Assembly (NCBI GenBank): GCA_003136315.1
Contig: PLDW01000112.1
Location: forward strand, 1 to 53,451
DNA: 53,451 nt
Direction: 5' to 3'
Origin: Gemmataceae bacterium
GTDB lineage: Bacteria; Planctomycetota; Planctomycetia; Gemmatales; Gemmataceae
Shown: piece by piece, positions 1 through 20,157 of the stretch
How the letters are laid out: every line of letters begins with the position of its first letter
Position numbering within the stretch: position 1 is the first letter of the stretch
The notes under the pieces: model-generated
Told to the model about the DNA's origin: nothing
The model's database searches: none
What the model saw: the letters and a program-made list of their open reading frames with translations, nothing else
Translations under genes and position numbers: made by a program

Positions 1-76
1 TCGTGGTAGGTCATTTCCTGGCGACTGCCTGAATTGCCCTCGTTCCGTCTTGCCGACACTCTCTCGGGTTCCCGAA

Positions 77-1246
77 TTACCCCCGGTGAGCAACGGGGGC
101 AGTCCGGTTTGGCAGCGACGATGAGTCCTGCAGTGATCCCTGGTCGGATCGCTCACTCAGGGTCGGCAGATCGGCCGTTGTGGGCAGGCTGATCGTGGAA
201 TCGGCCTTCTGGACCGAGCTGACGGAATCACCAAAGGCAACAGCATACGGGGCCAGGGCGGCGGCCGCCTCGGCTGCCGTCGCGAAACGAGCTGATCGCC
301 GCAGGCTCATCAGTCGGCGGAGCACATCTCCCAGCCCGGCAGGCAAATCAGGCCGCAATTCCTCGATAGACCGCGCAACCGCAGTCAGGTGTTGTTTCGC
401 CTTCTCGCTCGCCGTCCCACCTGGAAATGGAACGTGTCCGGCGAGCATGTGATAGAGGGTACAACCGAGAGCGTACTGGTCGGCACGGGGGTCCACTCGT
501 CGCGAGTCGACGACTTGCTCCGGAGCAACGTAGTCCGGGGAGCCAAGAAGCTTGCGACGACGCCTTTTCCGCGAGGGCGCATCACCGTTGCGTTGGACCC
601 GGGCGAGCCCCACGTCAAGGATCTTCACCGTCCGCCCCCCCCGCGCCAGGCCGAGGTTCGAGGGCTTCACGTCCCGATGGATCATGCCCTGATCGTGAAT
701 GTGTTGGAGGCCAAGAAGGGCCTGCCGTGCATATTCACACGCCCGACCCACTGCAAGCGGCGCTTCGGAGGCGATCACCCTCGCCAGGTCGAGCCCGGGA
801 ACAAATTCCATCACGAGGTACAAGGCCCGGTGATCGATCCCGGCGTCGTGGGAGTGAACCACATTCTCGTGGTTCAGCCGCGCAGCGAACAGGAATTCCC
901 GGAGGAATCGAGTGCGGATGGTGGGGCAATGGCGTCGGTCGAGTCGGACAAGTTTCAGTGCGACGACTCGGTCGAGTCCGGGGTCTCGGGCGAGGAAAAC
1001 GCGCCCCATCCCTCCTGCCCCGAGCCGTTCGAGCAAAACGTAGCGTCCGACCACGAGGTGGTGCCCGCGGTTGCGGCCGATCTGGACCGCCTGGAGAGGG
1101 GTTAGCCATCCCCGCCGCACAAGGTCGGTGAGGAACGCACGGGGATTCGGTGCCAGGCGTTCGAGTCGGGTTGCTTCGGCAATCCGCCCGGCGGGGAGAA
1201 TCCCGAGCCGGGCCATCAGGTTGGTCAGGGTGTCTGTCTGGTTCAC
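77..1246 (-). CDS. Ser/Thr protein kinase, planctomycete type
   Basis: A 389-residue Hanks-type protein kinase that should phosphorylate Ser/Thr on partner proteins. About 65 N-terminal residues form the short helical domain common before planctomycete kinases (WLTPLQAVQI). The catalytic domain follows: glycine loop GAGGMG near 76-81, Lys98 in VALK, HRDVKPSN with catalytic Asp192, DVG at 211-213 in place of DFG (the metal-binding Asp is kept), and a SPDYVAPEQ activation segment. After about residue 335 the tail is Ser/Thr-rich. I see no membrane segment, so it is probably cytosolic and its sensor is unknown. It is transcribed away from the unknown-gene cluster that starts at 1422. The kinase call is secure; substrate and role are not visible. 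Confidence 0.93.
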   Translation of the reverse strand: MNQTDTLTNLMARLGILPAGRIAEATRLERLAPNPRAFLTDLVRRGWLTPLQAVQIGRNRGHHLVVGRYVLLERLGAGGMGRVFLARDPGLDRVVALKLVRLDRRHCPTIRTRFLREFLFAARLNHENVVHSHDAGIDHRALYLVMEFVPGLDLARVIASEAPLAVGRACEYARQALLGLQHIHDQGMIHRDVKPSNLGLARGGRTVKILDVGLARVQRNGDAPSRKRRRRKLLGSPDYVAPEQVVDSRRVDPRADQYALGCTLYHMLAGHVPFPGGTASEKAKQHLTAVARSIEELRPDLPAGLGDVLRRLMSLRRSARFATAAEAAAALAPYAVAFGDSVSSVQKADSTISLPTTADLPTLSERSDQGSLQDSSSLPNRTAPVAHRG

Positions 1247-1421
1247 ACCTCCAAGACGACTCCGGCGGCCGAATGGTTCTTGAGAATTCCATGAGGAACC
1301 GGGTTACGGATGGGTAGAGGCCGAGAATCTTTTCCAGTTGAGAGTTCCGTCGGAATGTTATCGACGGGGGAGGAGGCTTTGCGGTAGAATCCAACCAAGT
1401 CGCCGGTCGTGAGGGTTCAAC

Positions 1422-2228
1422 GTGTCCGATGAACTTCCGAGTCTCGGGGAAATAGCCGGGTTGCCGCGTTGGGCGCGGGTTGCATTTGCCGCTCGTTGCG
1501 CAAGTCGAGTCTTACCGCTATTCAGGCACCGCCAGCCTGACACCTCCGACGGGCATGCCCAAGCGGTTGCTTCGGCGGTGAAGGTTTCGGAACGGGCCGC
1601 CGCTAACGCTGTCCGCCCCGACCACCCCCCCCCCACCACCCCATTTGCCGAACCCTCGGTCATTGAGAGGTTCAAGGCAGCTAAGACTGCTCTAAAGGGT
1701 AGCTACAACTCCCCAATCGACGACCTCTCGCTCGGCCACCCCTCTGACGTCTACGCCGAGCGTACCGCGAACTACGCCGTTCTCACGGCTATTATTCACG
1801 ACCACCATATCGGAGATAATGTCGGCATCATTGGCAATACTCATCACTTCCGTTACGTGTTAAGAGCCGCTCATGCCGCAGTCCTCGCCGGCGCACCAAT
1901 CTCTAACATTCTCAAAGACTTCCAGACCCTTCGTGAGCGGGCCAAGGCTGGAGGCTGGACCGATGAGACACCGGTTCCTCCCTCGGTCTTCGGTCCGATG
2001 TGGCCGGAGGGACCACCACCCGGCTGGCCGCGTGATCCCGAGGCCGACATCCTTCGTCTGAGGATCGCCATACCGGACGATGCCACCGAGGACGATGTCA
2101 AGCGTATGGTGCGGGAATTGGCCGGTGCAATGACTGACGTCCACCGCGCAGCGGGTGGGAGGGGGCTCCAGGTTGATACCCTCCGCTTGTTCGACACAGC
2201 CGACGTGTCGGTGGGGGTGCCGCAATGA
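1422..2228 (+). CDS. conserved hypothetical, first gene of a four-gene cluster
   Basis: A 268-residue protein of no function I can name. Near residue 10 it has LPRWARVAFAARCASRVLPL, a helical motif that I recall only from uncharacterised planctomycete proteins. A run of prolines lies around 68-72, a helical middle part follows, and the C-terminal third (HRAAGGRGLQVD) looks like a compact alpha/beta domain. There is no signal peptide or membrane segment. The start is a GTG. Its stop overlaps the next start by 4 nt (ATGA), so the two are very likely translationally coupled. It is divergent from the kinase at 77-1246 with a 175-nt gap that should hold both promoters. Confidence 0.8.
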   Translation: MSDELPSLGEIAGLPRWARVAFAARCASRVLPLFRHRQPDTSDGHAQAVASAVKVSERAAANAVRPDHPPPTTPFAEPSVIERFKAAKTALKGSYNSPIDDLSLGHPSDVYAERTANYAVLTAIIHDHHIGDNVGIIGNTHHFRYVLRAAHAAVLAGAPISNILKDFQTLRERAKAGGWTDETPVPPSVFGPMWPEGPPPGWPRDPEADILRLRIAIPDDATEDDVKRMVRELAGAMTDVHRAAGGRGLQVDTLRLFDTADVSVGVPQ

Positions 2229-2647
2229 GCGACCAACCTCGCCCCAAGCGATACATCGACCTCACCCTTGTCACGCAGGTTCCAGGTGACTCCACCGAGG
2301 CGATGGAGGCGGTCCGTCAACATCTTGCACCGGCCCCGACCGCGGAGCCGGGCTTCACGCGGCAGGAACAGCTCGAAACGGAGGCACGCGAGGCCGCGGC
2401 AGAGGAGTTGAACGCTCGGAATCGCAGCAGAGACGAACTTCTCACAGCAGCAGCACAACTCAGGGTGGAGGGGGCGGCAGTCGTCGGCCGCTTTGGCAGC
2501 CTGCTCATGGAGCATGTGGCCCATGTTGGGAGTGTCTCCGATCAACAGCAAGCCGGAACGGCGTACAGGAGAACCCTTCAAAGATTGGCTACTCTGGGCT
2601 ATCGTATTGGTATTTCCACCGATGACGAACCTGGTGAATCGCCATGA
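2225..2647 (+). CDS. hypothetical protein, second gene of cluster
   Basis: A 140-residue protein I do not recognise. Residues about 45-75 are rich in Glu, Ala and Arg and probably form a long helix. The C-terminus is acidic. It overlaps the genes on both sides by 4 nt (ATGA junctions at 2225 and 2644), which indicates one operon and suggests that the three products act together. No signal peptide, membrane segment or catalytic motif is seen. Confidence 0.75.
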   Translation: MSDQPRPKRYIDLTLVTQVPGDSTEAMEAVRQHLAPAPTAEPGFTRQEQLETEAREAAAEELNARNRSRDELLTAAAQLRVEGAAVVGRFGSLLMEHVAHVGSVSDQQQAGTAYRRTLQRLATLGYRIGISTDDEPGESP

Positions 2648-10613: not shown

Positions 10614-10648
10614 CCCGGGAACGGGTCACCCAGTTCCCCTTGATCGAC

Positions 10649-12031
10649 ATGGCAGAGTCTGGGATCACTTCGCTTGTCTCCCCGCCCTCCGTTCCAGACC
10701 GTTCACCCGGTCGGGTCTGGTGGGCGGTCGTGTTTGCATTGCGTCCGGTCCGTCTTGCGTATCGTCGTCCCCTCCGCGCGTTCCTGGTGTGCGGAGCCAT
10801 CCTGGTGGCAACCGCCGCGCTCCTGGTCGGGGGACTGCTGGCCTATTTTGAGTACCACCTGCGAGTTGCCCGACGGGAAGTGGACCTTGGGCACAATGCG
10901 GTCGCGACCCGACACCTCTGGTCCTGCCGGTGGGTGCGACCCGAGCAGCGAGAGGTGCTGCTTTTGGCGTCCCGCGTGGCTCGTCGCAGTGGTTCCTGGT
11001 CCGAATCCGAACTCCTCCTCGACCGTTATTGGGAGCGTTATGGAGACGACGAGGCGCTCGTCCTGGAACGGCTCCTCGATCGCGCAACGAGGGGCGACGT
11101 TGATAGTGCAGCCCCGCACCTTCTGAGCCGCATCGAGCAGGGTGGACCGGAGGCCAACCTTGCCCGCGAGGCCCTCATCACCGGTCTGGTGTACCGTTTC
11201 CGGTGGGCGGAGGCAGTGGGGCTTCTGGACAGTTGGCTTTCCCAGGCACCGGATACCACAACGGCCCTCCTCCTGCGTGGGAAACTCCAGGAACAGCGCC
11301 GGCAGACAAGCGAGGCTCTGCTCACCTACCGGCGGATGCTCGAACTCGACCCCGCACACGATGAGGCCCGGCTGCGTCTGGCAACGTTACTGTTGATACT
11401 CCGCCAGGGAGGGGAGGCGGCGACCCACCTGGGATATCTCCGACAAACGCTTCCGGACAACCCCATCATCCACACCCAGTGGGCGCAGGCGCTCGCCCTC
11501 CAGGGTCGGACGGCAGAGGCTCGTGCGGCACTCGACGACTGTCTCCGGGCTCATCCGGACCAACCCGCGGCCTTGACCGAACGTGGCCGGTTTGCACTGA
11601 CCGATGGAGATGACCGGGCGGCCGAAGAGTATTTCTCTCACGCCCTCCGACTCGATCCCGGCAACCTCGCGACCCGCAACCTGCACCTGATGGTTCTTGT
11701 CCGGAGTGGTAAGACGGCTGAGGCGGACAAAGAACGGGTCCGTATTGCGACTCTGGAGGCGGATGGGGAACGGATCGATAAGCTGATTTCCGGCCCGCTC
11801 CAGAACACACCCAACGACCCGGCGGTCCATCATGAGATCGGAATGATCGCCCTCCGGGCGGGCCAGCCAATCGAAGCGTTGCGTTGGTTCCAGAGTTCCC
11901 TCCAGGTCGGTCCGAATTACTTGCCGACACACCAGATTCTCGCGACCTACTACCACGAGACGGGAAATCCGGTTCTTGCCGCCAAACATCGGGCGATCAG
12001 CCAGCGGCTGAGCGCGCCGAAAGGGCCGTAA
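10649..12031 (+). CDS. membrane-anchored TPR protein
   Basis: A 460-residue protein with one N-terminal membrane helix (about 48-70, FLVCGAILVATAALLVGGLL) and then a long array of tetratricopeptide-like helical pairs. Recognisable TPR repeats (EALLTYRRMLELDPAHDEAR, then AEEYFSHALRLDPGNLATRN) give a superhelical protein-binding surface, probably periplasmic. The next two genes are also membrane-anchored and TPR-bearing, spaced 25 and 124 nt, so the three may form one complex. The ATG at 10649 is preferred to the TTG at 10640. Partners are unknown. Confidence 0.85.
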   Translation: MAESGITSLVSPPSVPDRSPGRVWWAVVFALRPVRLAYRRPLRAFLVCGAILVATAALLVGGLLAYFEYHLRVARREVDLGHNAVATRHLWSCRWVRPEQREVLLLASRVARRSGSWSESELLLDRYWERYGDDEALVLERLLDRATRGDVDSAAPHLLSRIEQGGPEANLAREALITGLVYRFRWAEAVGLLDSWLSQAPDTTTALLLRGKLQEQRRQTSEALLTYRRMLELDPAHDEARLRLATLLLILRQGGEAATHLGYLRQTLPDNPIIHTQWAQALALQGRTAEARAALDDCLRAHPDQPAALTERGRFALTDGDDRAAEEYFSHALRLDPGNLATRNLHLMVLVRSGKTAEADKERVRIATLEADGERIDKLISGPLQNTPNDPAVHHEIGMIALRAGQPIEALRWFQSSLQVGPNYLPTHQILATYYHETGNPVLAAKHRAISQRLSAPKGP

Positions 12032-12056
12032 TCTGGCCAGTCACGGAGCATCCCGA

Positions 12057-13391
12057 GTGTCGATTCTGAGGATCTTGCGACCCCGTCGGAGTTGGTTGAC
12101 CATCGCGGCGGTCGCGCTGGCGTGTGGGCTCGCTGCTCCTCAGCTCTGGGCCTGGGCACACCTCCGCCTGGCTCAGGCCGCTGTCGCCGCATCAGACACC
12201 AATGCCGCCCAGGTGAGCGTGGCGGTCTGTCTGGGAGTGTGGCCGGACCGGGTCGATGTCCACCTGATCGCCAGTCGAGCGGCACGCCAGGCAGGTGAGT
12301 TTGAGCAGGCGGATCGCGAACTGCGCACCTGCCAGAAACTGAATGGGGGGAGTTCAGACGAGATTGCGTTTGAGTGGGCCTTGCTCCAGGCAGCGGCTGG
12401 GAATGTGCGCGAGGTCGAGGATTTTCTCCAGGCGAAAGTCGAGAGGGATCCGCGCCTGGGTCCGATCGTGTGGGAATCGCTTGTGGAAGGCTATTTGAGG
12501 GTGTTTCGGACGATCGATGCGATGGCGACCGTCGACCACTGGCTCGGGCAGGATCCGGAAAACCTCCGCGCTCTCGAATTGAGGGGGATGACGTTTGTCA
12601 TCGGGAAGGGGGTGAAGCGGGGGTCCGACGATCTTCGGCGGGTTGTTGAGAGAGATCCTAACCGGCTCACAGCGCGGGCACAACTGGTACGGTGTCTGCT
12701 GGATCTGGGCGGTTACAAGGAGGCCACAACCCACCTGGAATGGCTGGCTCGGGACCGGCCTGATGACCCGGAGGTATTGGCCCGTTTAGCCCGCTGCCGG
12801 ATCATGCTGGACAGTCGAGAGGAGGCCCGCCAGGCACTCGATGCCGCCCTCGCCGTCGACCCCGACCACGGGCTGGCCCTCCGGACCTATGGCCAACTGG
12901 CCCTCCTCGAATCACAGCCTGCGGAAGCCGAGAGGTGGCTCCGTCGAGCCGTGGCGTCGTTCCCGAACGACTACCAAACCCAGTTCATGCTGGTCCGCGC
13001 GCTCATCCAACAGGGGAAGCAGAGCGAAGCGGTCGCCCAGTTACGGATCACCGAGGAGGTGAAGGATCGGGCGGAGCGAGTCGGCGAGTTACAGAGCCGA
13101 AAACTGGGCGAGCAACCTCTCGATCCGGCCTTGCATGTGGAAATGGCGCTCATTCTGTTTCGGACGGGACAGCCAGCGGAGGCCGAGCGCTGGCTATTCA
13201 GTGCTCTGAGCCTCGATCCGGACTTCGCACCGGCCCACGCCGCCCTGGCCGATCATTACGAACGAACCGGTGACAAGGCGCGGGCTGCCGAGCATCGCAG
13301 ACGGGTTGCTGATGTGGCGATTCAGAATCGCCCGCAGATTCAGAATGGGCCGCAGAGGACGCAGACTTCGACGCAGATAAAATCCAGATAA
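12057..13391 (+). CDS. membrane-anchored TPR protein, C-terminus made of repeat DNA
   Basis: A 444-residue paralogue-like neighbour of the preceding gene. It starts at a GTG and has an N-terminal membrane helix (about 12-32, SWLTIAAVALACGLAAPQLW) followed by TPR-like repeats (AEAERWLFSALSLDPDFAPAH among the last). Roughly the last 20 codons, beginning around RPQIQNGPQRTQ, lie inside one arm of a 55-bp inverted repeat. This tail is therefore probably acquired rather than ancestral. It likely acts with the adjacent TPR proteins at 10649 and 13516, but the role is unknown. Confidence 0.85.
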   Translation: MSILRILRPRRSWLTIAAVALACGLAAPQLWAWAHLRLAQAAVAASDTNAAQVSVAVCLGVWPDRVDVHLIASRAARQAGEFEQADRELRTCQKLNGGSSDEIAFEWALLQAAAGNVREVEDFLQAKVERDPRLGPIVWESLVEGYLRVFRTIDAMATVDHWLGQDPENLRALELRGMTFVIGKGVKRGSDDLRRVVERDPNRLTARAQLVRCLLDLGGYKEATTHLEWLARDRPDDPEVLARLARCRIMLDSREEARQALDAALAVDPDHGLALRTYGQLALLESQPAEAERWLRRAVASFPNDYQTQFMLVRALIQQGKQSEAVAQLRITEEVKDRAERVGELQSRKLGEQPLDPALHVEMALILFRTGQPAEAERWLFSALSLDPDFAPAHAALADHYERTGDKARAAEHRRRVADVAIQNRPQIQNGPQRTQTSTQIKSR

Positions 13392-13467
13392 GACAGAGTT
13401 GGTTTTGATCAAGATTTTATCTGCGTCGAAGTCTGCGTCCTCTGCGGCCCATTCTGAATCTGCGGGC
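13330..13467. repeat. 55-bp perfect inverted repeat over the TPR gene 3' end
   Basis: Arms 13330-13384 and 13413-13467 are exact reverse complements by base-by-base reading, with a 28-nt loop (13385-13412). The left arm encodes the last residues of the TPR protein and its stop lies in the loop. CGCAGA/TCTGCG motifs recur within each arm. As RNA it would form a very strong hairpin, and it may act as a terminator. Its length and motif reuse suggest a dispersed palindromic element. Confidence 0.95.
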
Positions 13468-13515
13468 CATTTCGTCTGACCGACAGGTTGGTTCTTCCTT
13501 TGCCAGAGACTCTGA

Positions 13516-16500
13516 ATGCCAACGCCTCCCGAGACTACACCGGCAACGCGAAGATCGCCGGCTGGCATTGGGTGGGCAGGCCGAGTTGATCTCCTCCTTC
13601 TTGCTCTGGTCCTCGGGTTTGCGTTCCTGGCGGCATCGTTCACGGCCCGTAACTCCGACCTGTGGCTCCACCTGGCAACGGGCCGCCTCCTCGCCCACGG
13701 GGACTACACTTTTGGAGTCGACCCTTTTGCCTACACCACCCGGAACATCTACTGGGCCAATCATGCCTGGCTGTTCGACCTGGGGTTGTACACTGCCAAC
13801 TCGTTTGTCGGTGGGGCCGGTTTGGTGATTTTGAAGGGCCTGGGGATCGCCACCCTCGCCGCCGTCATGCTCCGAACATCTCGGGCCACAACACACGTCT
13901 GGATGGCTGCGGCCTGCACACTCCTTGCTGTGCTGGCGATGAGTCCGCGATTGATCCTTCAGCCCGCGTGTTTGTCGATTCTTCTCCTGGCGGTGTGCGT
14001 GGAACTCCTTCGCATCGGGGGTCGGGCCTATCGAGCTGTTCCCGTGTTGATCGCTCTTTGGGTGAACCTGGATGGGTGGTTTGTCCTCGGCCCGATTGTT
14101 GTTGCACTGTTTTGGGTCGGCCGTCGTCTCGAATCGGACGTCCCTGTCAATTCGCCCCTTCCGGTATGGTTGTTGCCTGCATGTCTACTTGCTTGCCTCC
14201 TCAGTCCCCATCACATCCACGGCTTCACCCTGCCTCCCGAGCTTTCCCCGGCAGTCTGGAGAAGTGAAATGCCTGACGACCCTCGGCTGGCCGGTCTCTT
14301 CGCGTCCCCGTGGCGACTCGCTTCCTTCGGCCCTGCCGGCGGGTCCAGCCTGGCCGCCTGGGCATTCGTTACCCTACTCGTCGTGGGAGTCGGATCGTTC
14401 CTCGTCAACCTCCGATCTCTCCGAACCTGGCGGGGACCGGTGTGGCTGGTGTTCGCAGCGCTGGCAGCGTGGCAGGTCCGGCTCATCCCATTCTTCGCAG
14501 CGGTCGCGGGACCGATCACGTCAATGAACTTCGGCGAAATGTTGGGTTCGCGGTTTCCAAACCGGACTGGGCGCGGCCTGACGGGACTGGCCGCAGGGAC
14601 ATTGTTGGTGCTCGGCTGGTTGGGGTGTCTCCAGGGGTTTTCGAGCCGAGACCGGGCCGCTGCGTGGGCGGTCTACACCGACCCCTCGCTGGAAAAGATG
14701 GCTCGCGAACTTGCTCGCTGGCGGGCTGAGGGGATTCTCCCGGCGACTAGACACGTTGCCGAGTTACATCCGGATGTAGCCCACTACATGGTCTGGTTCT
14801 GTCCCGGGGAGAAGGTGTTCCTTGATTCGCGTCTGACGCTCTTCACGTCTGTTGCGGCCGACTACCTCCGAGTGGCGCAGGGGTTTGGGATCGTTCCGGA
14901 GGAGTCCCGCCCGGATGGCCGTTCGTGGGACTCGGTGTTCCGAGACAACGAGATTGTGGTTGCGGTTCTCTTCGATCCAGACGGCCGCAGGTACGCAGAC
15001 GGATTGTGGCATGTGAAAACCCGAGCGGATCAATGGAAGATCCTGCGCGTGGAGGGCGCGGCGGTCATCGTTGCGCCGAATGGAGAGGGCTACTACCGGC
15101 CGTCGGTCGAACCCTTCAATCCGGACCGCGAGGCGTTTGGCCGAACAGGAAACCCCGCCGCGCTGGCTGAGGGCCCGCAGTCACTCCCTGAGCCGGCCGA
15201 GTGGTGGAACGGGTTCACACGCCGCCCGCGAGTGGACTCCGCTGAGGCCGGGGCCGCCGGGGTGTATCTCCGTCTGTTCCCGGTTGCCCCCTCCCGGCAA
15301 GACCAGCCAACCAAGATCGCCGGTGTAGGTCGCTCGCCTGCTTTACCTCTTCTCGCCATCCGGGCTGGCCGGGCGGCCGTGGTAAACGATCCCGCGGATT
15401 CGGCCGCCTGGTTCGCGCTCGGTCGGGCGTATCTGGATCTCGGCCGGGGCACCTGGGAGGCCGACACTCAACCCGGGCTCTCGCTTCTCGGGCCGCTCCG
15501 ACACGTTCAGACGGTCGCAGCTTTTCATCAGGTGACGCTGCTGGATCCGAGCTATTTTCCGGCCCACGATCTCCTCGCCAATGTGTTCGCAGAGCGGCAA
15601 TACCACGATCTGTCGCTGCGTCATCGTGAGACCCATCTGCGGCTCGTCCGACGGGCTGGCCGGCTGCCCGGAGAAACCCCGGCCGAGTTTGCTGCGCGGT
15701 TGGCTCCCCTGGAAGCCGCCGTGGAACAACTGGAGCGCGTGGTCCAGGATGGTGAAAACCGGTTCCTCGTCCATACCTACGCCTCTGCGGGAGATCCCCT
15801 CGCCCGGGCGCGAGTGGCTTTGCAATATGGATTGGTCGCGAAGGCGCAAGACGTTCTCCTCAAGTCGCACCCCGATCTGTACGGGGCCGAAGGAGTCGCA
15901 CTTCTCCTGCGCATCCTGGTTCAGACCGGCCAGGTGGACGAAGCCCGGGTTCTCCTCGAACGGGAGGAACTTGTGCGAAACCCCAGCGCACTTGGGCAAT
16001 ACCAGTTACCCGGTGGGACGTGGGAAGGCAGGGTGTGGGAATACCGTCTTTCGGCGTATAACTGGTACGAACTCTGCCAGGCGGCCAGCTCGGGGCGATA
16101 TAATCGCGCCGCAACGGCGCTGGAACGCCTCGGGAGTCGGCTCGAACGGGAACAGGCCGCGCTCGTTCCGCAGGTGCGATCGATACTCGCACGCCAGATT
16201 GGTTCGGAAGTCGGATTATCGGCTCCACCGGGCTCACCACTGGCGCGGATGCACGTTGGTCGGGAGCGTGGTCGCTTGATCGGATACGCTGCCGACGCAG
16301 TGTTCCTGGGTATCCAGCGGGCCGACCTGCATACAATCGGGGGGCTCCTTCTCGCCGAGCAGGGCAACCCGACCGCAGCATTGACAGAGTTCGAGCGAGC
16401 GATGGAGCTATACACTCGTGCCGAATCTGTTGCCAAGTCCCCTCCCGGTCGTGACGTGGCGATAAAATACCGTGATGCCATCCGTCGTGATTCGCGCTGA
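13516..16500 (+). CDS. large polytopic membrane protein with TPR-like C-terminal half
   Basis: A 994-residue protein. The N-terminal part (about residues 20-380) has about nine hydrophobic helices. Motifs such as NSDLWLHLATGR, DPFAYTTR and WANHAWLFDLGLY resemble loops of GT-C/PMT-like glycosyltransferase-fold membrane proteins, where acidic and His residues near the outer face are important. The C-terminal part is soluble and TPR-like, probably outside the cytoplasm. It follows two membrane-anchored TPR genes and may share their complex. I cannot tell whether it is a transferase: no lipid-sugar binding motif is certain. The start is the ATG at 13516, just past the long inverted repeat. Confidence 0.8.
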   Translation: MPTPPETTPATRRSPAGIGWAGRVDLLLLALVLGFAFLAASFTARNSDLWLHLATGRLLAHGDYTFGVDPFAYTTRNIYWANHAWLFDLGLYTANSFVGGAGLVILKGLGIATLAAVMLRTSRATTHVWMAAACTLLAVLAMSPRLILQPACLSILLLAVCVELLRIGGRAYRAVPVLIALWVNLDGWFVLGPIVVALFWVGRRLESDVPVNSPLPVWLLPACLLACLLSPHHIHGFTLPPELSPAVWRSEMPDDPRLAGLFASPWRLASFGPAGGSSLAAWAFVTLLVVGVGSFLVNLRSLRTWRGPVWLVFAALAAWQVRLIPFFAAVAGPITSMNFGEMLGSRFPNRTGRGLTGLAAGTLLVLGWLGCLQGFSSRDRAAAWAVYTDPSLEKMARELARWRAEGILPATRHVAELHPDVAHYMVWFCPGEKVFLDSRLTLFTSVAADYLRVAQGFGIVPEESRPDGRSWDSVFRDNEIVVAVLFDPDGRRYADGLWHVKTRADQWKILRVEGAAVIVAPNGEGYYRPSVEPFNPDREAFGRTGNPAALAEGPQSLPEPAEWWNGFTRRPRVDSAEAGAAGVYLRLFPVAPSRQDQPTKIAGVGRSPALPLLAIRAGRAAVVNDPADSAAWFALGRAYLDLGRGTWEADTQPGLSLLGPLRHVQTVAAFHQVTLLDPSYFPAHDLLANVFAERQYHDLSLRHRETHLRLVRRAGRLPGETPAEFAARLAPLEAAVEQLERVVQDGENRFLVHTYASAGDPLARARVALQYGLVAKAQDVLLKSHPDLYGAEGVALLLRILVQTGQVDEARVLLEREELVRNPSALGQYQLPGGTWEGRVWEYRLSAYNWYELCQAASSGRYNRAATALERLGSRLEREQAALVPQVRSILARQIGSEVGLSAPPGSPLARMHVGRERGRLIGYAADAVFLGIQRADLHTIGGLLLAEQGNPTAALTEFERAMELYTRAESVAKSPPGRDVAIKYRDAIRRDSR

Positions 16501-16864: not shown

Positions 16865-18070
16865 ATGACTCCTCGACGCACAGACCGGCGCAAGCGCCAT
16901 CCCATCCGGCGACTCGCGGCAACAGCCGTTGTCGGGCTCCTCGATCCTGGCTCGGCGTTTGGCCAAAACCCCGAAGTGATCGCGACCTACCAGGGGCTGG
17001 ATGGTCGGGCGAATTTCGCCTTTAAGCTGAAGGATCAAAGCCACACTCGCCCGGTCGGGTTGCTCAACTGGGTCATCCCGGACGATCAGTTCAGTACGGC
17101 CGGGCTGCCTCGAACCTTCCCCGCCTTCTGCGCCGAGCCTCTCGTTGGCGTCACGGCAGGAAACACCTACCGGTTCGATCTTCAGAACCCGGAAGACCCA
17201 GCTGCGTATGGGTTGCCCAACACCGAAGCCGGGCAAAAAGAAGCAAAACTCCGCGGCGTCTACATCCGCGAGTTATTTGGCCGCTACTATCTGACCTCTG
17301 TCAACGCGACCACACCCGACGCTGCGCGTGCTTTCCAGGTCGCTCTGTGGGAGATCGCGTTTGAGACCCAGTTGCCGGCCGACCTCGATCCGGCCGCAGC
17401 AAAGTTCAACCTGTTCAACGGAACGTTCCAGGCGGACTATCCGAACCCGGGCCAGGCCCCGACGTTCGTTTCCACCGCCCAGACCTACCTCACCGGTCTG
17501 ACCGGAAATGACACACTCTTTTATGGCCCGGGACTGGCCGGATACGAACTCGTCCGTTTGAATGGGCTCCCCAACGCGGCGGGTGTGGTGGCCCAAGACC
17601 AGTACGCTCTGCGAATGGCGCTTGGCGGAGCCGCGCTCGGCCCAGCAGGAACCACGGCGGGCGGTCTCGCAGGTGGGATTGGAGGACTCGGTGGCGGCAT
17701 CGGTGGCGGTGGCGGCGGGTTCGGCGGCATCGGTTTTGGGGGAGTCGCTCCGGCACTCGCGGGAATCGGAGCGGGAGGGGGGTCAGGTTCCTCGTCACCA
17801 CCCACCACGACCACCTCGTCAAGCCCACCAACCTCACCGCCCACCACAACCACCGGGGGAAGCCCCCCGACCTCTCCGCCCACCAACACAATCCCCCCAA
17901 CCTCGCCGCCACCCCCTGGGCTGCCACCTGGGCCGCCTCCCCCACCTCCGATGCAATTCGTGCCCCCAACGAATCCGGTGCCGGGTCCGTCCGGGGTAAT
18001 TCTCGGAGGAATCGCCGCGATGGCTCTCGCCGGGCGCAGGAGTCTGAAGCGAGTCTTCAGCCCCAAGTAG
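16865..18070 (+). CDS. putative thioester-domain surface protein, copy 1
   Basis: A 401-residue exported protein with a basic signal peptide ending near residue 33. The N-terminal domain (about 35-255) carries TFPAFCAEP with Cys89 and AFQVALWEI with Gln158. This spacing and context fit the Cys and Gln that form the internal thioester in TED-type adhesins, which bind covalently to surface amines. A glycine-rich segment and a Thr/Ser/Pro-rich stalk (about 265-365) follow. The C-terminus is VPGPSG, then a hydrophobic helix, then basic RRSLKR, like a PEP-CTERM-type sorting tail. A paralogue follows at 18466. The thioester assignment is by motif reading; no exosortase is in the window. Confidence 0.75.
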   Translation: MTPRRTDRRKRHPIRRLAATAVVGLLDPGSAFGQNPEVIATYQGLDGRANFAFKLKDQSHTRPVGLLNWVIPDDQFSTAGLPRTFPAFCAEPLVGVTAGNTYRFDLQNPEDPAAYGLPNTEAGQKEAKLRGVYIRELFGRYYLTSVNATTPDAARAFQVALWEIAFETQLPADLDPAAAKFNLFNGTFQADYPNPGQAPTFVSTAQTYLTGLTGNDTLFYGPGLAGYELVRLNGLPNAAGVVAQDQYALRMALGGAALGPAGTTAGGLAGGIGGLGGGIGGGGGGFGGIGFGGVAPALAGIGAGGGSGSSSPPTTTTSSSPPTSPPTTTTGGSPPTSPPTNTIPPTSPPPPGLPPGPPPPPPMQFVPPTNPVPGPSGVILGGIAAMALAGRRSLKRVFSPK

Positions 18071-18465
18071 TGAGAGAGTCACTGGTTGCACCCAATTGAG
18101 TTTCGCCCGAGAGGACCAAGTTGCCCGTCAGTTTGTGGATCTCTCCTCCACAAGCTGGCTTCAAGAAGACTTGATGCTCCTCTCCGCAGATTCGGAGTTT
18201 TGAGACCCGTCGCACGAACTCCTCCCATTTTCTCACCGACCCCCCATCACAACTGGAATTCCCTCTCGCAACGTGCAGGCGGTTGCCGATGATTTACAGG
18301 TGGTAAGCGGTTCGGTTGAGCCCGTAACTGCGGTACGAATTATGATTCGGAATCACGTTTCGGACTTTTCTTCGGCCAGTTCGAGAGCTAACTTCAATCC
18401 CTAAGCTTTCGGGGTATCCCCTCATACCCCACCCAGCACCCTCGCGCCGTCCGCGGGAGGTCCAT
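18071..18465. other. intergenic region between the two thioester-type genes
   Basis: No convincing gene is seen. The region ends with a C-rich tract and GCGGGAGGTCC just before the GTG start of copy 2, like the leader of copy 1, so copy 2 probably has its own promoter here. Confidence 0.4.
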
Positions 18466-19734
18466 GTGGACCACGTTTGTAATTACAACAGATTATCATT
18501 CGTTCTCTATTGTGTTGTCACCGTTCTGGCATGTGGCTCCTTCGTTACCCAGGTAAAAGGGCAATCACCCCCCCAGATTTCCGCCACCTACCGCGGTTTG
18601 ACCCCAACCACGCCCGCAAACGATGGCCTGCCAGCCATGTTCCGTTATCGCTGGGTGGAACGGGACAAGTGGGTCGAGCGGGTTGCGGGGGTTGTACCGG
18701 GCATCCCGAACAACGAGCCGTCGGTTGGCATCCTCAACTGGGATGTCCCATCATCGGAGTTCACCACAGCGGGACTGGACCGGACCTTTCGGACCTATTG
18801 TGCTGAGGCACCAATCGGGGTCACCTCCGGGAAGACCTATCGGTTCCAGGTCCAATCACCGAGTCTACCTGAGGCCTTTGGCCTCCCTGAGACGCCTGAT
18901 GGTCGGGCCGAAGCTGTTCGACGAGCCAGCTATATTCGGGAACTCTATGGCCGCTATTACCTGACCTCCTTGGACGACCCCAATGCGACCCGGTCCTTCC
19001 AGGTCGCTCTTTGGGAGATCATTCACGAGACCCAGCTTCCCCCCGCGAAGGCTGCCCCGTTCGATCTGACGACCGGGAATTTTCAGGCCGACTACGCCAA
19101 TTTGGCCGCGGCTCCGAGCTTTGTTCGACAGGCTCAGGACTATCTGAAAAGCTTGACCGGTAACGAAAATCTGTTCTACGACAACCCGGGCCTGGCCGGG
19201 ATGGAATTGATCCGCTTGAAGGGACTGGCCGGAGCAGGCGCGGGAGACATTGCAGCCCAGTCTCAGTTCGCGCTCCAATCAGTGCAAGCATCAGCCAGTA
19301 ACAACGCAGTTGCAACGGCCGGGTCGGGTGTGACGAGCGGACTCGGTGGTTCTGGATCGGGAGGGCCGGGTGGCGGCAGTCCCTCACTTGGCGGTGTGCC
19401 GACGGGGTTTGGTCCTGGAGCTGGGTTTGGTGGGGTGGGGAGCCCAGGGACGACCGGAGGGTCCTCGACAACGGGAACCTCGACTGGGGCCGGTTCGACC
19501 ACTGAACCCACAACCACGAGTTCAACACCGTTTCAGCCACCCACAACATCAAGTAACGACCCCCCGATTAACCAACCGCCGAACAACTCCGTTTTACCGG
19601 CGATTGACCAATTACCGCCGACACCTCCGCAGACCAGTCCGGTCCCGGCCCCCGCGGGGGTCGTTCTTGGGCTCGTCGCCTGGGGAATTGTGGCTGGTCG
19701 CCGGAGCCTGGGCCGGGTGGCCAGGTCGAAGTAA
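18466..19734 (+). CDS. putative thioester-domain surface protein, copy 2
   Basis: A 422-residue paralogue of the preceding gene with the same order: signal peptide (about 1-33), domain with TYCAEAPIGV (Cys112) and SFQVALWEI (Gln179), a Gly-rich region, a Thr/Ser/Pro-rich stalk, then VPAPAG, a hydrophobic helix and RRSLGR at the end. Shared blocks such as YIREL-GRYYLTS and NFQADY confirm common descent, while the domain N-terminus has an insertion around residues 48-85. The GTG at 18466 is used because the nearby ATG at 18464 is in a frame that stops early. It probably works as a surface adhesin or matrix protein alongside copy 1. Confidence 0.75.
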   Translation: MDHVCNYNRLSFVLYCVVTVLACGSFVTQVKGQSPPQISATYRGLTPTTPANDGLPAMFRYRWVERDKWVERVAGVVPGIPNNEPSVGILNWDVPSSEFTTAGLDRTFRTYCAEAPIGVTSGKTYRFQVQSPSLPEAFGLPETPDGRAEAVRRASYIRELYGRYYLTSLDDPNATRSFQVALWEIIHETQLPPAKAAPFDLTTGNFQADYANLAAAPSFVRQAQDYLKSLTGNENLFYDNPGLAGMELIRLKGLAGAGAGDIAAQSQFALQSVQASASNNAVATAGSGVTSGLGGSGSGGPGGGSPSLGGVPTGFGPGAGFGGVGSPGTTGGSSTTGTSTGAGSTTEPTTTSSTPFQPPTTSSNDPPINQPPNNSVLPAIDQLPPTPPQTSPVPAPAGVVLGLVAWGIVAGRRSLGRVARSK

Positions 19735-19756
19735 CTTCACGCGGGGACTTTCCGCG

Positions 19757-19786
19757 GGCGGCTGGCATGGTAAGATGCCGGCCGCC
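19757..19786 (+). terminator. hairpin terminator after thioester copy 2
   Basis: GGCGGCTGGCAT (19757-19768) pairs with ATGCCGGCCGCC (19775-19786) through 12 bp with one G-U pair and a 6-nt loop. TCTTCGTTTTCC follows. This is a good intrinsic terminator 22 nt after the stop. Confidence 0.75.
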
Positions 19787-19833
19787 TCTTCGTTTTCCGT
19801 CCCCGCCTCCACTTACATGAAAGGATCGAACGG

Positions 19834-20157
19834 ATGGCCAAGTCGAAATCAACCCTCGCCATCACTCGGGATCAGTTCCGCTCGGATGCCAAACCGCTGC
19901 CTGTTGTGATCAACGGGAAGGAACTGGTGGCAATGGCAAAGGAGTTCTCCACGGGATCGCTTGGGTGGAACATCAACGACAAACTCCAGGTGGAAGTCGG
20001 CGGCCACATCGTGACTGTCCAGGTTGGGCTCAACCTGACGATCATCGGTAGCAAGGATCTGCCTGGTTCACCCGTAGCGGCGACCGCAGCTTCTCCACCA
20101 CCCCCGGCAACTGCAACCGGCGATGTCTCGACCGGGGGTGGGCAGGCCGATTTCTGA
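19834..20157 (+). CDS. small conserved hypothetical protein
   Basis: A 107-residue soluble protein. Residues 1-78 look like a small beta-rich domain (ELVAMAKEFSTGSLGWNIND, then LQVEVGGHIVTVQVGLNLTI), followed by a flexible Ala/Pro/Gly tail. I do not recognise the family. It starts 48 nt after a terminator and ends 22 nt before the DUF4380-like gene, so it is probably co-transcribed with that gene. Confidence 0.7.
   Translation: MAKSKSTLAITRDQFRSDAKPLPVVINGKELVAMAKEFSTGSLGWNINDKLQVEVGGHIVTVQVGLNLTIIGSKDLPGSPVAATAASPPPPATATGDVSTGGGQADF

Follow-up and report, generated by a model that had tools for sequence, protein, structure and literature searches.

The locus considered here raises the question of whether two adjacent genes of a planctomycete encode surface proteins that attach covalently through an internal thioester and, if so, which residues would form the bond. 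Planctomycetes are diderm, Gram-negative-type bacteria. In the literature found, thioester domains (TEDs) belong to Gram-positive adhesins, mostly LPXTG-anchored, a number of which attach to host proteins by a covalent bond, and a survey of fibrillar adhesins names the TED for Firmicutes and Actinobacteria (PMC8286594). A literature search covering few subscription journals returned no report of a TED together with PEP-CTERM, exosortase or Planctomycetes. An earlier note on this DNA had proposed a pair of TED adhesins with PEP-CTERM-like tails. The predicted fold, the motifs, the Pfam matches of relatives and the exosortases of the genome favour the TED and tail parts of this proposal, and adhesion is retained as a putative function. 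The two proteins, here called TED1 and TED2, are probably (at roughly four chances in five) paralogous, exported, exosortase-sorted TED surface proteins with an internal thioester for covalent attachment.

The gene pair and its neighbourhood

The window, that is, the whole stretch of 53,451 nucleotides that was analysed, contains the following features at and next to the gene pair:

16865..18070, + strand: TED1, 401 aa, predicted to be secreted, ATG start; signal sequence about 1-33, TED-like domain 35-255, Gly/Pro/Thr stalk about 255-371, PEP-CTERM-like tail 372-401
17978..18067, + strand: putative C-terminal sorting tail of TED1, VPGPSGVILGGIAAMALAGRRSLKRVFSPK, from the tail alignment; tail type common to four proteins of the genome
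18466..19734, + strand: TED2, 422 aa, predicted to be secreted, GTG start; TED-like domain 35-276, stalk about 276-392, tail 393-422
19642..19731, + strand: putative C-terminal sorting tail of TED2, VPAPAGVVLGLVAWGIVAGRRSLGRVARSK, from the tail alignment
19756..19787, + strand: terminator-like hairpin 3' of TED2, 13 pairs (9 G-C), from a pattern scan only; such hairpins are no more frequent in the window than in shuffles
19834-20157, + strand: 107-aa protein without a Pfam match, between the TED and mutarotase-like genes; three related genomes encode homologues with 58-88% identity over 67-108 aa
20123-21124, + strand: mutarotase-like gene (DUF4380/TTE1925-like), downstream of a TED gene in conserved order in six related genomes

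The start codons of both TED1 and TED2 are preceded by a GGGAGG Shine-Dalgarno-like sequence. The two TED-like domains, of about 220-240 aa each, are 54% identical. The stalks of TED1 and TED2 consist of 25% and 16% Pro and of 28% and 22% Gly, respectively, with charged residues nearly absent; a Pfam scan found no stalk domain in these low-complexity Gly/Pro/Thr regions. The open reading frames, coordinates and residue numbers (Cys89/Gln158 and Cys112/Gln179) given in the earlier note were all found as claimed. Its Pro/Thr/Gly stalk is borne out by the composition, and the tail that it described as VPxPxG followed by a helix and RR is likewise present, with a C-terminal hydrophobic stretch and a basic cluster in both proteins.

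Six other genomes have a single TED gene upstream of this mutarotase-like gene (DUF4380), and in three of them the small conserved open reading frame sits between the two genes. Among the loci compared, only the window carries two TED genes at this position. This TED-mutarotase gene order is seen at L064 (contig JAIXLE010000034.1). In a tree of the family, TED2 groups with a gene of genome G002 (91/92), and the remainder of the tree is mostly without resolved branching. No matrix genes lie adjacent to the TED pair, the conserved neighbours being the mutarotase-like gene and the small protein. Upstream of the pair (10640-16500, + strand), the window encodes three consecutive TPR proteins, the last of which has a long hydrophobic, membrane-like N-terminal part.

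Predicted thioester-domain fold and the wider family

Pfam and NCBIfam scans of TED1 and TED2 gave no match up to E = 10. The check with TED profiles that the earlier note had envisaged was thus negative for the two proteins themselves and positive for many of their relatives. When the 41 domains of the family alignment (15-64% identical to the TED1 domain) were scanned singly, PF08341 (TED) was the recurrent Pfam match (27 of 41, best 5e-6). One relative, L037, scored 24.7 bits, above the curated cut-off of 22, and automatic Pfam annotation must therefore already mark some planctomycete proteins as TED. The TED of pLS20, whose Cys has been shown to be required for function (PMC8092201), scored 23.6 bits against the same profile, and L002, the closest relative of TED2, scored 14.7 over profile positions 2-93. 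Two family alignments used as profiles against PDB sequences retrieved no TED, which might be expected given an identity of 7-12% to class I TEDs. An alignment by hhalign with seven Bacillus and Carnobacterium class II TEDs scored weakly, with a probability of 2%; the Cys was nonetheless aligned on the Cys. As TED1 and TED2 have no direct Pfam match, their TED membership is transitive through their relatives and is joined by the evidence of the predicted fold.

Both domains were modelled with AlphaFold2 from input alignments of 11 and 28 sequences, respectively:

16967..17629, + strand: TED-like domain of protein 1, with Cys89, Gln158, Trp162 and Gln244; pLDDT 91.5; VIA-align Z 8.2-10.9
18568..19293, + strand: TED-like domain of protein 2, with Cys112, Gln179, Trp183 and Gln265; pLDDT 87.4; VIA-align Z 8.2-10.1

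Foldseek by itself found no significant match for these models in the PDB (E-values above 0.1) or in BFVD. When the chains that it ranked highest were re-aligned with VIA-align 2, the best 12 entries for each model were thioester-domain proteins only (Z 8.2-10.9 over 145-167 residues), including 6fwy, 6fwv, 5a0d, 5a0g, 5dcq, 5a0l, 6fx6 and entries of Cpa; the first non-TED entry followed at Z 4.4 for model 1 and 4.2 for model 2. The absence of a direct Pfam match and the high Foldseek E-values would also fit an unrelated beta/alpha PEP-CTERM domain in which Cys and Gln are conserved by coincidence. However, two separate models place TED entries alone at the top, with a clear gap in Z, and PF08341 recurs among the relatives, at least once above its cut-off, which makes such a coincidence very improbable. 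The predicted models thus lend good support to a TED fold, a beta-barrel with a helical insert (three-helix bundle), for the heads of TED1 and TED2.

With class I TEDs (PF08341: SfbI, PnTIE, CpTIE, FbaB and Cpa), TED1 and TED2 share this predicted fold and the N-terminal position after a signal sequence. The predicted fold also matches the upper lobe of class II TEDs (BaTIE, EfmTIE86, SaTIE and pLS20 p34; Z 8.2-10.9), the Cys motif of which (YCID/FCID) is similar, but the inserted seven-stranded beta-sandwich that these proteins carry after the helical bundle and ahead of the Gln strand is absent. Model 1 has just two strands (193-202 and 212-217) after its helical part, and model 2 is alike, so that neither contains a class II insert and both are in this respect like class I TEDs. 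A one-turn helix (78-81 in model 1, 101-104 in model 2) at the place of Alpha0 of class I TEDs, between strand D and alpha1, is a candidate equivalent of it.

By protein and profile searches, relatives were found in the same genus, in the same family and across the phylum Planctomycetota. Of 392 sampled genomes, 25 had matches at E <= 0.001, among them the genome of the window itself (20 with a narrower profile), and close homologues with named records are mostly from Gemmataceae (Gemmata, Fimbriiglobus). A scan of the genome contigs returned eight loci with the family profile and none with a single-protein query, and two family domains queried against plasmids by tblastn gave no match. The majority of the distant relatives are proteins of 220-350 aa in which a signal sequence and the domain are followed directly by a PEP-CTERM tail (VPTPGA...RRRR), with no long stalk. 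Adjacent pairs of genes for TED-like PEP-CTERM proteins, about 1 kb apart, were also observed in distant planctomycetes (L022/L040, L023/L041, L021/L038, L025/L039, L031/L044 and L029/L042), which indicates that gene pairing recurs beyond the family of the window.

Two relatives have larger, adhesin-type architectures, which count in favour of the preferred reading of TED1 and TED2. L010 (838-3156, + strand, genome G046) is a 773-aa open frame that combines a TED-like domain with pAdhesive_15 (4e-49) and CBM2 (1e-17). L138, from the same genus as the window (1-2505, - strand, G003:C888), is an open frame of about 1556 aa with a TED-like domain after a SpaA-like domain and before SdrD_B repeats. 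It has a weak match to DUF7507, a family that is mentioned where predicted intramolecular isopeptide bonds were surveyed (PMC12617251). By analogy, the L138 layout resembles that of Gram-positive TIE proteins and would suit a TIE-like fibrillar adhesin.

Residues of the predicted thioester

The codons of the residues that bear on the bond are as follows:

17129..17131, + strand: Cys89 (FCAE), predicted thioester Cys, from family conservation; sole Cys in protein 1
17336..17338, + strand: Gln158 (FQVALW), Gln of the helical TQxxPhiW motif, not a likely bond former; in helix 117-132 of model 1
17594..17596, + strand: Gln244 (AQDQY), predicted thioester Gln, from family conservation; 155 residues from the Cys
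18799..18801, + strand: Cys112 (YCAE), predicted thioester Cys, from the family alignment; sole Cys in protein 2 apart from the N-terminal signal region
19258..19260, + strand: Gln265 (AQSQF), predicted thioester Gln, from the family alignment; 153 residues from the Cys

Over the 41 family domains, the Cys is conserved in 40, and the helix Gln, the Trp and the C-terminal Gln are conserved in all 41. F or Y precedes the Cys in 39/41 domains, E, D or Q stands at +2 in every one, and exactly one Cys is present in 35. In a wider set, 47 rows reach the C-terminal column and every one of them has Gln there. To judge from these alignments, the conservation of Cys, Gln and Trp is not due to chance.

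In characterized TEDs, the Cys lies in a [YFL]CPhi-zeta motif and the Gln that bonds to it belongs to a weak PhiQzetaPhiPhi motif near the C-terminus, while a helical TQxxPhiW motif is common, the Gln and Trp of which have been shown by mutagenesis to be dispensable for the thioester (PMC4450167, PMC6194298). The Cys motif of TED1 and TED2 fits the class I form [YFL]CxE/D. The earlier note had assigned the bond to Cys89-Gln158 and Cys112-Gln179, a pairing that would accord with the invariance of Gln158 in the 41-row family alignment. However, both models place FQVALW in the central helix, it is a TQxxPhiW-like motif with Phe instead of Thr, and mutation of the corresponding Gln leaves the thioester intact in Cpa (PMC4450167). 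The helix Gln is replaced by His or Ser in three relatives, L124, L127 and L134, the first two of which retain the Cys and also the C-terminal Gln, a position that the L134 match does not reach. Moreover, the helix Gln is only 69 (TED1) and 67 (TED2) residues from the Cys, compared with Cys-Gln spacings of 152 in SfbI, 153 in PnTIE and 129 in CpTIE. This assignment is therefore rejected as very unlikely to be correct.

A second invariant Gln (Gln244 in TED1, Gln265 in TED2), overlooked in the earlier note, is the better candidate partner. It follows the Cys by 155 and 153 residues, a spacing close to those of SfbI and PnTIE. In both models the Cys ends a strand and this Gln stands directly before the last strand, as in TEDs. 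When positions are counted back from the ends of the VIA-align ranges, Gln267 of CpTIE, Gln261 of SfbI and Gln247 of PnTIE fall on residues 209-210 of model 1 (Q210 is Gln244), and the Gln of CpTIE and SfbI on residues 230-231 of model 2 (Q231 is Gln265); the count assumes an ungapped last strand and places the residue to within about 1 position. AQDQY and AQSQF fit PhiQzetaPhiPhi loosely, differing from class I TEDs in the Asp or Ser that follows the Gln. Taken together, the identity of the helix motif, the spacing, the strand position and the loss of the helix Gln in L124 and L127 suggest that the thioester pair is likely Cys89-Gln244 in TED1 and Cys112-Gln265 in TED2.

It is also conceivable that the domain has kept the TED fold without a reactive thioester, in which case the proteins would be exosortase-sorted structural or matrix proteins whose lone Cys is free, buried or engaged in intermolecular disulfides. 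One relative, L028 (1-2208, + strand, genome G192), is a natural Cys-less variant that retains the domain, with Asp at the Cys position (FKAFDLELE) and with the helix Gln, the Trp and the C-terminal Gln kept. Adhesive modules are moreover lacking in most relatives, which are short PEP-CTERM proteins. Against this explanation, the Cys and the C-terminal Gln form a near-universal pair while mean column identity is otherwise about 25%, and a Cys that is invariant although unpaired, in a domain that is secreted, needs a special role to explain it. We consider loss of the thioester unlikely for TED1 and TED2, though less so than the helix Gln as partner.

Proposed sorting and mechanism, and their meaning

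The tails of TED1 and TED2 consist of VPGPSG or VPAPAG, a hydrophobic stretch and RR...R/K, and thus share with PEP-CTERM proteins a proline-containing motif, a transmembrane helix and a C-terminal basic cluster. One tail type is common to four TED proteins of the genome (TED1, TED2, L046 and L047). The variant lies below PF07589 detection: a scan with this profile, the cut-off of which is 20.7 bits, gave no score for the TED1 and TED2 tails, 12.0 for the paralogue L047 and 19.3 for the relative L022. The genome does have five PEP-CTERM matches above the cut-off. A search for exosortases, proposed in the earlier note, returned three above the PF09721 cut-off, all on other contigs, of which two are above and the third just below the cut-off of TIGR02602. 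Because PF07589 gives the tails of the pair no score, we infer exosortase sorting from the anatomy of the tail and the presence of the enzymes.

The computations support the fold, the residue conservation, the tail anatomy and the presence of exosortases, from which we infer bond formation, processing, a ligand and adhesion. The signal sequence would direct export, and the head (residues 35-255 or 35-276) would fold as a TED in which the Cys89-Gln244 or Cys112-Gln265 thioester forms with loss of ammonia. An exosortase may then recognise the VPxPxG-TM-RR tail and remove or transfer it, so that the protein would end up in the exopolysaccharide matrix or on the outer surface, where the Gly/Pro/Thr stalk would present the head. 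A nearby nucleophile, such as a protein lysine or an amino sugar, could attack the thioester and form a covalent bond with the side chain of the Gln, and the outcome would be attachment to a surface, a neighbour cell or the matrix. The head, stalk and anchor recall fibrillar adhesins and TIE proteins, but TED1 and TED2 differ from these, and from class I TEDs, in that a Pro/Gly/Thr stalk takes the place of isopeptide or ester domains. They further differ from class I TEDs in the PEP-CTERM-like tail in place of LPXTG and in the diderm planctomycete host, and from other PEP-CTERM proteins in that the head is a TED.

Since the habitat is apparently free-living, a matrix or environmental surface is a more likely partner than a host protein. 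Given that the majority of relatives are short and secreted, with a PEP-CTERM tail but no long stalk, a matrix or sealing role instead of adhesion is possible. In one form of the preferred reading, the active thioester would crosslink the matrix of the producing cell itself (PEP-CTERM proteins or exopolysaccharide) rather than attach to foreign surfaces. The apparently free-living lineage, the presence of four TED paralogues with one tail type in one genome and the link between PEP-CTERM/exosortase systems and exopolysaccharide (PMC1569441) are consistent with such a role, which we put forward only tentatively, as the pair has no matrix genes beside it.

For the phylum as a whole, we lean slightly towards the view that diderm Planctomycetota use Gram-positive-type TED chemistry in an exosortase-sorted PEP-CTERM protein family, spread over many families of the phylum, to form covalent crosslinks with surfaces or with the exopolysaccharide matrix. 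If true, covalent adhesion would be restricted neither to Gram-positive bacteria nor to sortase anchoring, and PEP-CTERM proteins, the functions of which are mostly unknown, would gain a testable biochemical activity.
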